Assembly (NCBI GenBank): GCA_020718065.1
Contig: DYDE01000002.1
Span: forward strand, 1-54,794
Length of the DNA: 54,794 nucleotides
Reading direction: 5' to 3'
DNA from: Marinifilum sp.
GTDB lineage: Bacteria > Bacteroidota > Bacteroidia > Bacteroidales > CG2-30-32-10
Made by a program: the position numbers and the translations under genes. This document shows, one piece after another, positions 51,698 to 54,794 of the stretch; the first letter of the stretch is position 1, and each line of letters starts with the position of its first letter. The notes beneath the pieces are model-generated. The model searched no databases and was not told the DNA's origin. It saw only the letters and a program-made list of their open reading frames with translations.

Positions 51698-51809
51698 AAA
51701 TCCCAGAGGGATTAAATGTTGGTAGAAATAGATACAAGCAATCGTTTTCCCCTCCTTTAGGAGCGGGATGCAAGAAGTTTTCTACCAACATTTAACTTCT
51801 CCAGAGTTT
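51698..51809. repeat. REP-like multi-hairpin repeat, copy 1
   Basis: Starts 7 bases after the U32 stop. TTAAATGTTGGTAGA (51712-51726) is the exact reverse complement of TCTACCAACATTTAA (51781-51795). Inside lies a small hairpin CTCC-TTTA-GGAG. The left flank is ATCCCAGAGGGAT, another hairpin, and the right flank AACTTCTCCAGAGTTT. The same four-part plan occurs in copies 2 to 4. Confidence 0.85.
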
Positions 51810-51867
51810 ATTAAATCTTTCATAGCAAAACTTCACCATTGCAAATTGTCAAAATATCATTAACAAA

Positions 51868-52329
51868 TTATTCTATAAAGTGAAATAAGTAGTTTTCATT
51901 AAAATCAATTTCAAATTTCTTTAAAAACTGAAGATATTCTTCTTTAAATGTGCTTTTTTTATGGTGAATTTCCTGATTTGTAATGTATTTAATTACATTG
52001 TCTCTTTGAGAACGACTGTATGAAAAAGCGCCAAACCCTTCTTGCCAATAAAATTTAAATTTTGATAATTTCTTTTCGTTAATAAATCGCGATGATTCTG
52101 ATTTTATTTCTCGAACCAAATCAGATAAGCAACAAGTTGGTGATTGTCCAATTAAAATATGCATATGATCTGACACAGAATTTATGGTTAGCAGTTTTTG
52201 TTTCTGATTGGTGATAATTCCTGTAATATATTTTTGCAATGGTTCGCGGAATTGTGAATTAATCATTGATTCGCGATTTTGTACCGCAAATATCAGTTGA
52301 ATGGTGATTTGAGAATAAGTATTTGCCAT
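51868..52329 (-). CDS. REP-associated tyrosine transposase (RAYT, IS200/IS605 TnpA-like)
   Basis: 153 residues. HUH motif DHMHILIG with H55 and H57, and a C-terminal catalytic-tyrosine helix NVIKYITNQEIHH with Y115, both as in Y1 transposases. WQEGFGAFSYSRSQ precedes it, typical of the Bacteroidota RAYT/IS200-like group. No TnpB gene. It is bracketed by REP-like repeats 1 and 2, its start being 20 bases from copy 2, which fits the domesticated RAYT family thought to spread such repeats. The frame is complete, so it may be active. Confidence 0.9.
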   Translation of the reverse strand: MANTYSQITIQLIFAVQNRESMINSQFREPLQKYITGIITNQKQKLLTINSVSDHMHILIGQSPTCCLSDLVREIKSESSRFINEKKLSKFKFYWQEGFGAFSYSRSQRDNVIKYITNQEIHHKKSTFKEEYLQFLKKFEIDFNENYLFHFIE

Positions 52330-52349: not shown

Positions 52350-52469
52350 AAATCCCAGAGGGATTGGATGTTTGTAAAAATAAAATACTTAGTGTTGTTC
52401 CGCTCCTATAGGAGTGGGAAGTATGTTGTTGTTATGTTTTTACCAACATTTAACTCCTATGGAGTTTGA
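52350..52469. repeat. REP-like multi-hairpin repeat, copy 2
   Basis: AATCCCAGAGGGATT start, central CGCTCC-TATA-GGAGTG hairpin, TACCAACATTTAACTCC and GGAGTT at the right. The left outer arm (GGATGTTTGTAAAAA) has diverged from the right arm. Begins 20 bases upstream of the transposase start. Confidence 0.8.
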
Positions 52470-52537
52470 TGTTTAATGTTATTGATTACTAATTATTATA
52501 GTTTTTATCTATTTACATTCATTTTGCCTTATTATAT

Positions 52538-52656
52538 AATCCCAGAAGGATTGAAAGTTAGTAGAAAAATGTTTGATTTCGTTTTTCTGCTCTCATAGGA
52601 GCAGGATATACAAAGTAACATTGCTTTTTACCAACAGTTAACTTCTACGGAGTTTG
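52538..52656. repeat. REP-like multi-hairpin repeat, copy 3
   Basis: AATCCCAGAAGGATTGAAAG start, central CTGCTC-TCAT-AGGAGCAG, right end TACCAACAGTTAACTTC then GGAGTT. The 68 bases between copies 2 and 3 resemble the 60 bases between copies 3 and 4 (both contain TATTGAT, ACTAA, CATTTTGC and TTATTA), so the pair arose by tandem duplication. Confidence 0.75.
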
Positions 52657-52716
52657 ACATTTAATAGTATTGATCACTAAATCTTATCTTATTACAATCA
52701 TTTTGCTTTATTAAAT

Positions 52717-52835
52717 AATCCCAGAGGGATTTAATGTTGGTAGAAAATTGATTGCATTTGTTTTTCGCTCCTAAAGGAGCGGAATAAACAATTTCGCATT
52801 GTTCACTACTATCATTTAACTCCTATAGAAGTTAT
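52717..52835. repeat. REP-like multi-hairpin repeat, copy 4
   Basis: AATCCCAGAGGGATTTAATG start, perfect central hairpin CGCTCC-TAAA-GGAGCG (52766-52781), right end ATTTAACTCCTATAGAAGTT. The right outer arm is decayed (ACTATCATTTAA instead of ACCAACATTTAA). Confidence 0.75.
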
Positions 52836-52940
52836 TACTTACAATTTAATTTATTGTTAAAATATAATATTCAAAAACAAATTTAAAAAAATAATTTTTT
52901 AAATATCCCTCTCCTATTTTTCCAAAAAAAAATTTGTTTG

Positions 52941-53216
52941 AAAAAATATTTTCACCCTCTTACAATATTTTTTAAAATTTTCCGTTATTCAACTATAACC
53001 AATAAAAGAAGAATTTCTATGGACATAATAATCTGAAGTTTTATGTTTTTTTTGAAAATATCTAAAAAATATTTTTCAACACTTACAATAAAAAAAACAT
53101 TATTCCGTTAATCATATAAAATTAAGAGAAAAATGAGTTTTAAAATGATAACAATTTCAGGTTTTAAAATATTTTTTTCATTCGATACAATAAAACATAA
53201 AAATTCCGTTAGCAAT
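52941..53216. repeat. Three diverged direct repeats ending in TTCCGTTA
   Basis: Copies at 52941-52991, 53064-53113 and 53164-53216, each AAAATATTTTTCA, then TTACAATA or ATACAATA, an A-rich run, and TTCCGTTA (TCCGTTA at 52981, 53104, 53205). Their 3' flanks are also weakly alike, so the ancestral unit was longer, about 100 to 120 bases. Confidence 0.6.
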
Positions 53217-53272
53217 TAAAAATAATTCCATTTATGAAAATAACTTTTACAATTTTTAATTTAAAAAGTATG

Positions 53273-53299
53273 TTGATTCTAATGTTCTTATTAGCTTTT
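53273..53299 (+). promoter_or_regulatory. Possible promoter upstream of the array transcript
   Basis: TTG (53273-53275), 16 bases, TAGCTTTT (53292-53299), a partial match to the TTTG/TAnnTTTG pair. It would transcribe the boxA-like leader, the array and perhaps the gene at 54065. Confidence 0.3.
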
Positions 53300-53407
53300 C
53301 CGCACAATGTTTATAAACAATACTAAACGCCAAGCTTTAAGCAATTGCGAACTATTTGTTGCAGGATTACAAGCACAAAAAGGATAATAAAATCAAACAA
53401 ATACTTT

Positions 53408-53429
53408 AAGTTCTTTGACGTACTGGAAA
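53408..53429 (+). promoter_or_regulatory. boxA-like antitermination motif
   Basis: AAGTTCTTTGACGTACTGG resembles the leader element found before rRNA genes in Bacteroidota (from memory, AGTTCTTTGACATATTGG-like) and the general boxA core (TGCTCTTTAACA in E. coli). It lies 220 bases before the 42-bp array. boxA elements let long noncoding RNAs escape Rho. The match is by eye. Confidence 0.4.
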
Positions 53430-53517
53430 CTTTATTGCAGGCATCAACAGGTAATATGCTAATTGTATATTATCATGCTTGCAATGCTCTGCGTTGTGGA
53501 GCAAAACACAATCGAAC

Positions 53518-53639
53518 GAACAAAACAGCAAGGGCAAAAGCATTATAAATAGTGTAAAAATAGCTGTAGGGTTATCGGCTATTATCTTTTTGGGTTATAG
53601 AGTGCTCTGTTTCAAGTGCTTTTTGCCCCATGTTTTGTT
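53518..53639 (+). ncRNA. Candidate structured RNA with long closing stem
   Basis: AACAAAACA (53518-53526), GCAA, GGGCAAAAGC (53532-53541) pairs with GCTTTTTGCCC (53618-53628), CA, TGTTTTGTT (53631-53639): 19 paired positions with one bulge and a small internal loop, enclosing about 76 nt. The right arm ends 8 bases before the 42-bp array. No known RNA family is recognised. A decayed insertion with terminal inverted repeats is an alternative. Confidence 0.45.
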
Positions 53640-53647
53640 TAAAATTA

Positions 53648-54025
53648 GAAACACGGATGTGTTTTAATTAAAAAATGTAAAAAAAATGAGAAACACATGT
53701 GTATTTTAGGAAAAAAATGCTTAAAAAGTATGAAACACTAGTGTGTTTTGGACAAAAAATGTATAAAAAACATAAAATGCAACTGCAACTTAACCAAAAA
53801 ATGCTAAAAAAATGTAAAATGCAACTGCAATTTAGGTAAAAAATGGCTAAAAAGTATAAAATGCAACTGCAACTTGACCCAAAAATAGTTAAAAAGTATA
53901 AAATGCAGCTGCAACTTAACTAAAAAATTGCTAAAAAACATAAAATGCAGCTGCAACTTAATCAAATAATACTTAAAAAGTATAAAATGCACAAGCGTTT
54001 TAACTTCAAAATGGCTAAATAACAA
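53648..54025. repeat. Nine-unit 42-bp tandem hairpin array
   Basis: Nine units start exactly every 42 bases (53648, 53690, 53732, 53774, 53816, 53858, 53900, 53942, 53984). Each is an 18-base hairpin (7-nt arm, 4-nt loop, 7-nt arm) plus a 24-base A-rich spacer resembling AAAAAATGCTAAAAAGTAT. Units 1-3 have arm GAAACAC with GTGTTTT or GTATTTT; units 4-8 have AAAATGC with GCAACTT or GCAATTT; unit 9 has AAAATGC with GCGTTTT. The three inner pairs are kept in all nine units although the sequence changes (CAC/GTG to TGC/GCA or GCG). Forty-two bases is 14 codons and four helical turns. In one plus-strand frame stops occur only in a few spacers, so a degenerate peptide repeat cannot be fully excluded. 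Confidence 0.85.
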
Positions 54026-54064
54026 ATAAACAAATGATTATTAACATTTTAATAAATTAAAGTT

Positions 54065-54794
54065 ATGAAAAGAACATGGAATTATGCGGTAAATACGTTT
54101 TTGAATGCTACAAAAACAAATTTTAAGAAAATGTTAGGTCTGGTTAGTTATCATTTAACGGCATTAAATGCCGAAAAAGACGACCCAGAAATATTAGCAC
54201 TATTCAATGCTTCAAAAACTGAATTAGAAACTTATAAAACTAAATATGCAGCATGGAATGGTGCAAAAGGAGACCTTGCAGGTGAAACACAACTTTTTAA
54301 TGATTGTTTGGATTTAATGTCGGACAAACTAGATGGATGGGACCTGAATATACAACAAGTTTATCGTGAAAAAACAGGTGAATATAAATCAATTTTCAAT
54401 AAAGGTAAAACAGGTTTTTATACAGGAACGCAAGATGAACGCATCAGCGAACTGGATACTTTAGAATTACAGTTGAAAAAACATCCTTCTCTTGATACAG
54501 TGCGAGCATCTGTTAAAACCTACAAAGATGAATTAAAAGGTTATAAAGAAAATAAAGAACAATATTTCGAAAAACTTGATAAAGCTTCAGTAGAACTGGA
54601 AAAAAGCCGTATTGTTGTTGGCATTAGAATGTATCGTAACCTTGGTATGTTAATGTATAAATTTGGGGAAACCCCCGAAGAAATTGTCAGATTCTTCAAT
54701 TTAGAACTTTTGCGAAGACATTTAAGCAAAACGGATGATTCAGAAAACCAAAGTTATGTATTATTTATTGATCCTAAAACTACTGAAGAAGCAG
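54065..54794 (+). CDS. Unrecognised helical protein, 3' end cut by window edge
   Basis: Open from the ATG at 54065 to the end of the window, 243 codons. Starts MKRTWNYAVNTFLNATKTNF; no signal peptide, lipobox or membrane segment, so predicted cytoplasmic. Mostly alpha-helical and charged, with coiled-coil stretches (LKGYKENKEQYFEKLDKASV), one Cys, and a helix with RMYRNLGMLMYKFGETPEEI. Codon use is like the rest of the window and slightly less AT-rich than the flanking DNA. I recognise no family. It starts 39 bases after the nine-unit hairpin array with no terminator or clear promoter between, so co-transcription with the array is plausible. Confidence 0.75.
   Translation, partial: MKRTWNYAVNTFLNATKTNFKKMLGLVSYHLTALNAEKDDPEILALFNASKTELETYKTKYAAWNGAKGDLAGETQLFNDCLDLMSDKLDGWDLNIQQVYREKTGEYKSIFNKGKTGFYTGTQDERISELDTLELQLKKHPSLDTVRASVKTYKDELKGYKENKEQYFEKLDKASVELEKSRIVVGIRMYRNLGMLMYKFGETPEEIVRFFNLELLRRHLSKTDDSENQSYVLFIDPKTTEEA

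Follow-up and report, generated by a model that had tools for sequence, protein, structure and literature searches.

Tandem repeat arrays with a period of 41-43 bp upstream of most members of a family of helical protein genes in Bacteroidota

Tandem repeats in bacterial DNA are usually regarded as either coding or neutral. The centromere array sopC of plasmid F holds an inverted repeat in each of its repeats. The sopC array, part of a ParABS system of type Ia, consists of twelve 43-bp repeats (PMC9178275), and type III toxin-antitoxin systems, including ToxIN, CptIN and TenpIN, carry tandem repeats of 36-45 nt directly 5' of a protein gene, which are diverse between loci (PMC4627078). Here, we describe an array of nine 42-bp units and the helical protein gene that follows it at the right end of a 54,794-nucleotide stretch of DNA from Marinifilum sp. 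(assembly GCA_020718065.1, contig DYDE01000002.1, positions 1 to 54,794; hereafter, the window), together with the family to which this gene belongs. Across the family, the geometry of the array, that is, a period of 41-43 bp and inverted-repeat symmetry, persists while the repeat sequence changes at almost every locus.

The window array (53647..54024, no strand assigned) has A-rich flanks and was delineated by periodicity and resampling, with a lag-42 periodicity score of 154, the highest of 60 first-order Markov resamples scoring 23. Units 1-3 contain the palindromic core AAACAC-N2-GTGTTT and units 4-8 the core TGCAACTGCA or TGCAGCTGCA, all placed on a common A-rich frame; the folding z-score of the array region is -3.9. 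The array ends 40 nt before the ATG of the gene, and no terminator-like site was found in 52800-54300. The open reading frame (ORF; 54065..54793, + strand) is open to the window edge and covers 243 codons, encoding a helical bundle (approximately residues 1-210) and the start of a C-terminal beta domain. In the complete contig (C66 of the window's own genome, G000; 81,232 bp), the gene continues beyond the edge to 323 aa, consistent with the 321-322 aa of its paralogs; residues 244-249 are X due to a short N run in the assembly at this point. Thus, the array that had been proposed from the sequence alone is real, the gene does follow it closely without an intervening terminator and is indeed cut by the right edge. 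Coding repeats were rejected because the 42-bp unit frame has stops and periods of 41 and 43 also occur, and a CRISPR array because the whole unit repeats, with no unique spacer part. None of five loci matched a curated Rfam covariance model at the gathering threshold.

By a strict tandem-repeat criterion, 38 of the 53 family members with at least 400 bp of upstream sequence are preceded, at a distance of no more than 1 kb, by an array of 41-43 bp period. Among long intergenic gaps sampled from two genomes, G000 and G210, with simple ORF calls, 8 of 63 hold such an array (Fisher p 7e-11, to be read with the caveat that members within one genome are related). The tie between a helical protein and a structured repeat array, noted at this single locus by the sequence-only reading, is therefore strongly supported family-wide, and the refuting condition set by that reading, homologues widespread with no array, did not overturn it. 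In a free autocorrelation scan over lags 15-160, nearly all full-length members peak at 41-43 bp or multiples thereof, and 45 upstream arrays score at least 30. With periods of 38-46 bp allowed, all 44 arrays kept fell at 42 (26 arrays), 41 (14) or 43 bp (4), with a mean of 41.8 and a standard deviation of 0.6; the median array has 6 copies and lies 144 bp from the ATG. The most distant member, L066, displays a 21-bp period. In B-DNA, four helical turns correspond to about 42 bp and two turns to 21 bp. Among sampled contigs, seven genomes that encode the family contributed 664 kb with 14 arrays of 41-43 bp, and eleven genomes that lack it contributed 514 kb with no such array. Under equal density, this split has a probability of about 3e-4, for contigs that were chosen non-randomly and with a few of the arrays overlapping open frames.

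The repeat sequences themselves are highly variable. By eye, the arrays of paralogs with 50-75% identical proteins are unrelated (L014/L015, L027/L071, L039/L059 and L084/L085), and the notion that protein relatedness predicts array relatedness, which holds at 95% protein identity, fails below about 75%. Units of one array differ by about 20-25%. For 21 of the 44 arrays, the units hold more inverted repeats than expected from column permutation (pooled p 3e-18), and arm pairing within units beats pairing between units by 58 pairs (null standard deviation of 10), in a test somewhat inflated by the common descent of the units. For instance, in the L042 array, CATAAC/GTTATG is replaced by GCAATCC/GGATTGC. 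The G.U and A.C mismatches are equally frequent (76:74 cells, 56:48 columns), with no sign of RNA wobble pairing, and many of the best dyads have only 0-2 nt between the arms; both features fit DNA dyads better than RNA hairpins. Furthermore, 18 of 42 loci carry the Bacteroidota promoter motif TAnnTTTG in the interval from array to ATG, compared to 3.5 expected, and most of these motifs lie at -34 to -65. Taken together, the symmetry, the lack of wobble pairing, the short spacers and the promoter position favour sites in double-stranded DNA, located 5' of a promoter, rather than an array that is transcribed into hairpins.

The link between gene and array is strong but not exclusive, given that arrays also occur away from the family. 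Arrays of 21 or 41-43 bp are found beside genes for PKD lipoproteins and a TonB receptor, or between convergent genes; G000 and G155 have many arrays of 21 bp, and arrays concentrate in gaps longer than 400 bp. The array motifs often recur elsewhere in the same genome, with none to several partners per array. The window array has one clear partner (G000:C85:8-181, 86% over 174 bp), some 190 bp 5' of a gene whose product, by eye, resembles an FGE-sulfatase-type protein. Block copying between the two was rejected: the best register reaches 81% compared to 77.5% for the next, hence there is no sharp colinear copy. Elsewhere in G000, C74 and C63 hold partners of the C158 arrays. Of the G210 arrays, that of L061 has one partner and that of L078 has three, including one close to a family-gene remnant. 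No partner was found in the respective assembly for the arrays of L053, L082 and L124 (G210) or C9 and C42 (G000). Comparison of sampled arrays revealed further unlinked pairs of same-motif arrays within one genome, at L097:11949-12122 and L170:4950-5170, and at L155:4-199 and L171:9858-10073.

Arrays also accompany other helical proteins. A second multi-copy helical family, family B (L095 type), carries a CarboxypepD domain at its C-terminus, and five of its G000 members are preceded by 21-bp arrays with a 63-bp higher order; its loci L095 and L178-L182 are located in G000:C13, C53, C168, C131, C186 and C7. Where arrays are abundant, family B occurs in multiple copies; its use as a marker for the presence of arrays was rejected, because single or weak copies are also found in G004, G007, G012 and G018, in which no arrays were detected. 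A third helical family without a name, recognized by the motif NPSN..IKIPAL, is represented twice in G000 and once in G155, with 21/42-bp arrays within 500 bp; members include L170:5304-6140 (- strand) and L221:15803-16603 (- strand).

The sequence-only reading had called the window-edge gene an orphan, a description that does not apply: G000 encodes six members, that is, five paralogs besides the gene itself, and relatives occur across Bacteroidota. The copy number reaches 21 in G111, 19 in G043, 16 in G155, 10 in G210, 6 in G462 and 4 in G002. The distribution is patchy, with members in 12 of 295 genomes of the order and 4 of 395 in the phylum sample. No relatives were found in phage, plasmid and IMG/VR viral collections, the viral scan resting on two short peptide patterns, and a phage or plasmid origin was rejected on these grounds. 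A case in point for mobility is the pair L040 (G001, family f1) and L041 (G155, family f120), the proteins of which are 95.5% identical. The DNA identity is 70-88% in the array, about 50% in the spacer and 38% in the sequence 3' of the gene, so that the array is better kept than the spacer; array and gene moved together between the two families. Degenerate copies, which show internal stops or a frameshift and include a remnant close to an array with the L078 motif, were encountered at G102:C47:13347-14060, G003:C162:7240-8206 and G210:C89:105009-105152. Three contigs with family genes also share a dispersed repeat in intergenic DNA (L005:3359-3505, L007:4862-5009 and L008), which is about 140 bp long and approximately 90% identical between copies.

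As the sequence-only reading had it, the protein belongs to no family that can be named: no Pfam, NCBIfam, PADLOC or PHROG model matches it at its cut-off. AlphaFold2 predicts an elongated six-helix bundle with two long helices, followed by a C-terminal beta domain; the model of the 243 in-window residues has a mean predicted local distance difference test score of 82.7. The best structural match of the bundle is the HBM sensor domain of McpS (Z 10.3, root-mean-square deviation 3.4, 187 aligned residues), followed by TorS (Z 9.1-9.5), although for helical bundles below Z 13 the likeness may reflect no more than a common arrangement. The Pfam HBM model (PF16591) gives a weak match below the cut-off (E 0.018, 14.9 bits compared to a gathering score of 29.8), and we regard the predicted HBM likeness as a lead only. 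The beta domain is structurally similar to jelly-roll or GOLD-like sandwiches (Z 6-8). A Foldseek search against the PDB returned no match at E <= 0.001; a single viral fold match below E 0.001 was discarded as uninformative (TM-score 0.18). By eye, no signal peptide or membrane segment was seen, and the family proteins are probably cytosolic. Profile searches recovered no ParB domain. Assignment to a defence family was rejected, the sole match being that of PD-T4-6 to a coiled-coil stretch of one paralog (E 0.0027).

The C-termini vary among the members, with the beta domain being the common version. A CarboxypepD-type domain takes its place in L014/L015 and, by eye, in L084/L085; Pfam CarboxypepD_reg matches one A3 member; L011 has a longer repeat-type C-terminus (by eye), and the G462 members have no C-terminal domain. 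In G043 (C254, C171 and C98) and G155 (C16), matches to the N-terminal domain of family B abut or overlap matches to the common beta domain, a pattern that suggests exchange of domains between family B and the first family.

We tentatively favour the reading, to which we assign somewhat less than an even chance, that the array is a double-stranded, locus-specific cis-regulatory element. The dyad-symmetric sites, four turns apart, would all face one side of the helix; a dimeric protein may assemble cooperatively on this row of sites, and the bound array would then control or mark the neighbouring gene and the small number of other loci that share its motif, presumably with expression as the output. 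The binder could be the family protein itself, in an autoregulatory arrangement as with centromere or operator arrays, or another factor; direct binding of the array by the family protein is possible. The linkage, period, symmetry, promoter position and motif partners are direct observations. Several findings weigh against a cis-regulatory role. In 15 of the 53 members, no 41-43 bp array was detected, and about half of the arrays lack a significant dyad. No TAnnTTTG was found between the window array and the ATG. We found no recognizable DNA-binding domain in the family protein, and its helical body is not positively charged. Arrays near unrelated genes or between convergent genes are not explained by a promoter-proximal operator. 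Finally, conservation between the window array and its C85 partner extends over almost all of the 42-bp unit rather than the dyad alone, which shared descent or exchange fits at least as well as selection on binding sites. The main rival explanation, which we consider rather unlikely, is that the arrays are bacterial satellite DNA: some replication or repair process would amplify 21/42-bp units in long intergenic DNA and copy arrays between loci, without any function, and the family genes would merely adjoin roomy intergenic DNA. The sharing of whole units by partner arrays, beyond the dyads, is as expected under this scenario, as are the arrays beside unrelated genes and between convergent ones, the abundance of 21-bp arrays in G000 and G155, and the clustering of arrays in gaps longer than 400 bp. 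However, it does not readily account for the higher frequency of arrays at family genes (38/53, compared to 8/63 for other long gaps), the inverted-repeat symmetry and within-unit covariation, the stronger conservation of the array than of the spacer after transfer between families, or the absence of arrays from sampled genomes without the family. Extending the cis-regulatory reading, one can envisage an undescribed genome-wide system of many phased palindromic arrays, in which each set of one to several arrays would have a private sequence. Members of a diversified family of modular helical proteins would each occupy their cognate arrays and thereby connect or co-regulate same-motif loci, and selection would preserve the spacing of four turns and the dyad symmetry while the sequence changes, so that a genome would hold dozens of orthogonal address codes; as a whole, this is unlikely.

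The RNA-based and the partition-like readings are less likely. In an RNA system akin to type III toxin-antitoxin, repeat RNAs derived from the array would bind and restrain the adjacent protein, and pair specificity would let diverse loci coexist. The tandem repeats directly 5' of one gene, with a unit near 36-45 nt and diverse sequences, the patchy multi-copy distribution, the folding z-score of the window array and the precedent of CptIN and ToxIN, the repeats of which lie upstream of their toxin gene (PMC4627078), all speak for it. We nevertheless regard this explanation as improbable: the promoter motif between array and gene makes read-through from the array unnecessary at 18 of 42 loci, neither a terminator near the window array nor an excess of G.U pairs was found, units diverge within one array, the period is locked to helical turns, 21 bp included, motif copies occur away from any family gene, and the predicted fold is a helical bundle rather than a ToxN-like barrel. 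Similarly small is the probability we give to a chromosome-organising role, in which family proteins would bridge a few same-motif arrays and hold distant loci together in the manner of ParB. Such a role is consistent with the groups of none to several unlinked same-motif arrays per genome, often with one at a family gene, with the twelve 43-bp repeats of sopC (PMC9178275) and with the elongated bundle predicted for the protein, but not with the lack of a ParA/ParB-like gene or domain and of a known DNA-binding fold, nor with the arrays that have no partner. The type of nucleic-acid-based system suggested by the sequence-only reading (defence, mobile or regulatory) is thus not supported in the form given there: no further genes of a unit adjoin, there is no defence-family match, there are no phage, plasmid or viral relatives, and the features of the arrays favour double-stranded DNA sites.

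Further elements lie 5' of the window array. An AT-rich element is present in two copies (TTTAAAATATTTTT...TACAATAAAA...CCGTTA; 53060..53235, no strand assigned), identified by sequence comparison; it resembles elements 5' of paralogs in C42 (three copies with 145-bp spacing), C64 and C9 and possibly has a promoter-related role. A CGTTA promoter element conserved in all members was rejected, being valid only in G000 and a small number of other genomes. In the stretch that separates the AT-rich elements from the array, folding predicts an imperfect long inverted repeat or hairpin of about 120 nt (53518..53640, + strand), for which no counterpart was found by eye near other family members. Farther upstream, four elements of about 110-140 nt (51698-51813, 52350-52471, 52537-52659 and 52716-52837), with inverted-repeat ends AATCCCAGAGGGATT..TTGGTAGAAA / TTTTACCAACATTTAACTCC..GGAGTT, flank a small IS200-like ORF of the Transposase_17 type (51868-52329), in an arrangement resembling a REP/RAYT cluster. 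Downstream of the window-edge gene, the neighbours encode a PorV-like outer-membrane protein, two secreted proteins of the type IX secretion system (T9SS) type, cydAB and rsmE (names partly by eye), and no nuclease, RNA-binding or reverse-transcriptase gene was found among the ORFs of at least 90 aa. Contrary to the suggestion that further genes of the unit might lie beyond the edge, these neighbours are ordinary genes, and the window-edge gene therefore stands alone.

Selection on a system in which many specificities coexist in a single genome is suggested by the fixed period with free sequence, the symmetric units, the link to a multi-copy family without a name, the private partners and the apparent lack of arrays in sampled relatives that do not encode the family. 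If so, it would represent a new way to address bacterial chromosomal loci and a source of orthogonal pairs of DNA site and protein. Even if neutral, the arrays would constitute a rare case of bacterial satellite-like DNA that obeys a helical-turn rule.

Literature searches, the scope of which excluded most subscription journals, returned no description of such arrays, and each of the known systems shares only part of their features. REP/REPIN elements with their RAYT transposases are likewise palindromes that are scattered over the genome and associated with a gene family; however, REPs form one sequence family per genome, whereas here each locus group has its own sequence, set out in long phased arrays without a linked transposase. 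The HBM (helical bimodular) sensor domains, as in McpS, TorS and PilJ, come closest to the predicted six-helix bundle with its two long helices, yet at a Z below the informative range for helical bundles and at a Pfam score below the cut-off; in the family protein, a beta domain follows the bundle, and no signal peptide or membrane segment is apparent by eye. Nearest in layout are the type III toxin-antitoxin systems, which also have tandem repeats directly upstream of the gene. There, a promoter 5' of the array serves both array and gene, a terminator stands between the two, and the repeats are processed into antitoxin RNA; here, 18 of 42 loci have the promoter motif on the gene side of the array, and no terminator was found at the window locus. 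The arrays described here are further set apart by their imperfect units, helical-turn period and motif copies elsewhere in the genome, and by the protein, which has no match to a ToxN/Kid-fold endoribonuclease (Pfam, NCBIfam, PADLOC) and is predicted to fold into a six-helix bundle plus beta domain. Nearest in DNA anatomy is sopC, with which the arrays share direct repeats of about four turns that hold inverted repeats, the dyad being significant in about half of the arrays described here. Unlike sopC, these arrays are chromosomal, occur as many sequence-unrelated versions per genome and lie 5' of single helical-protein genes, next to unrelated neighbours rather than a ParA ATPase or ParB.
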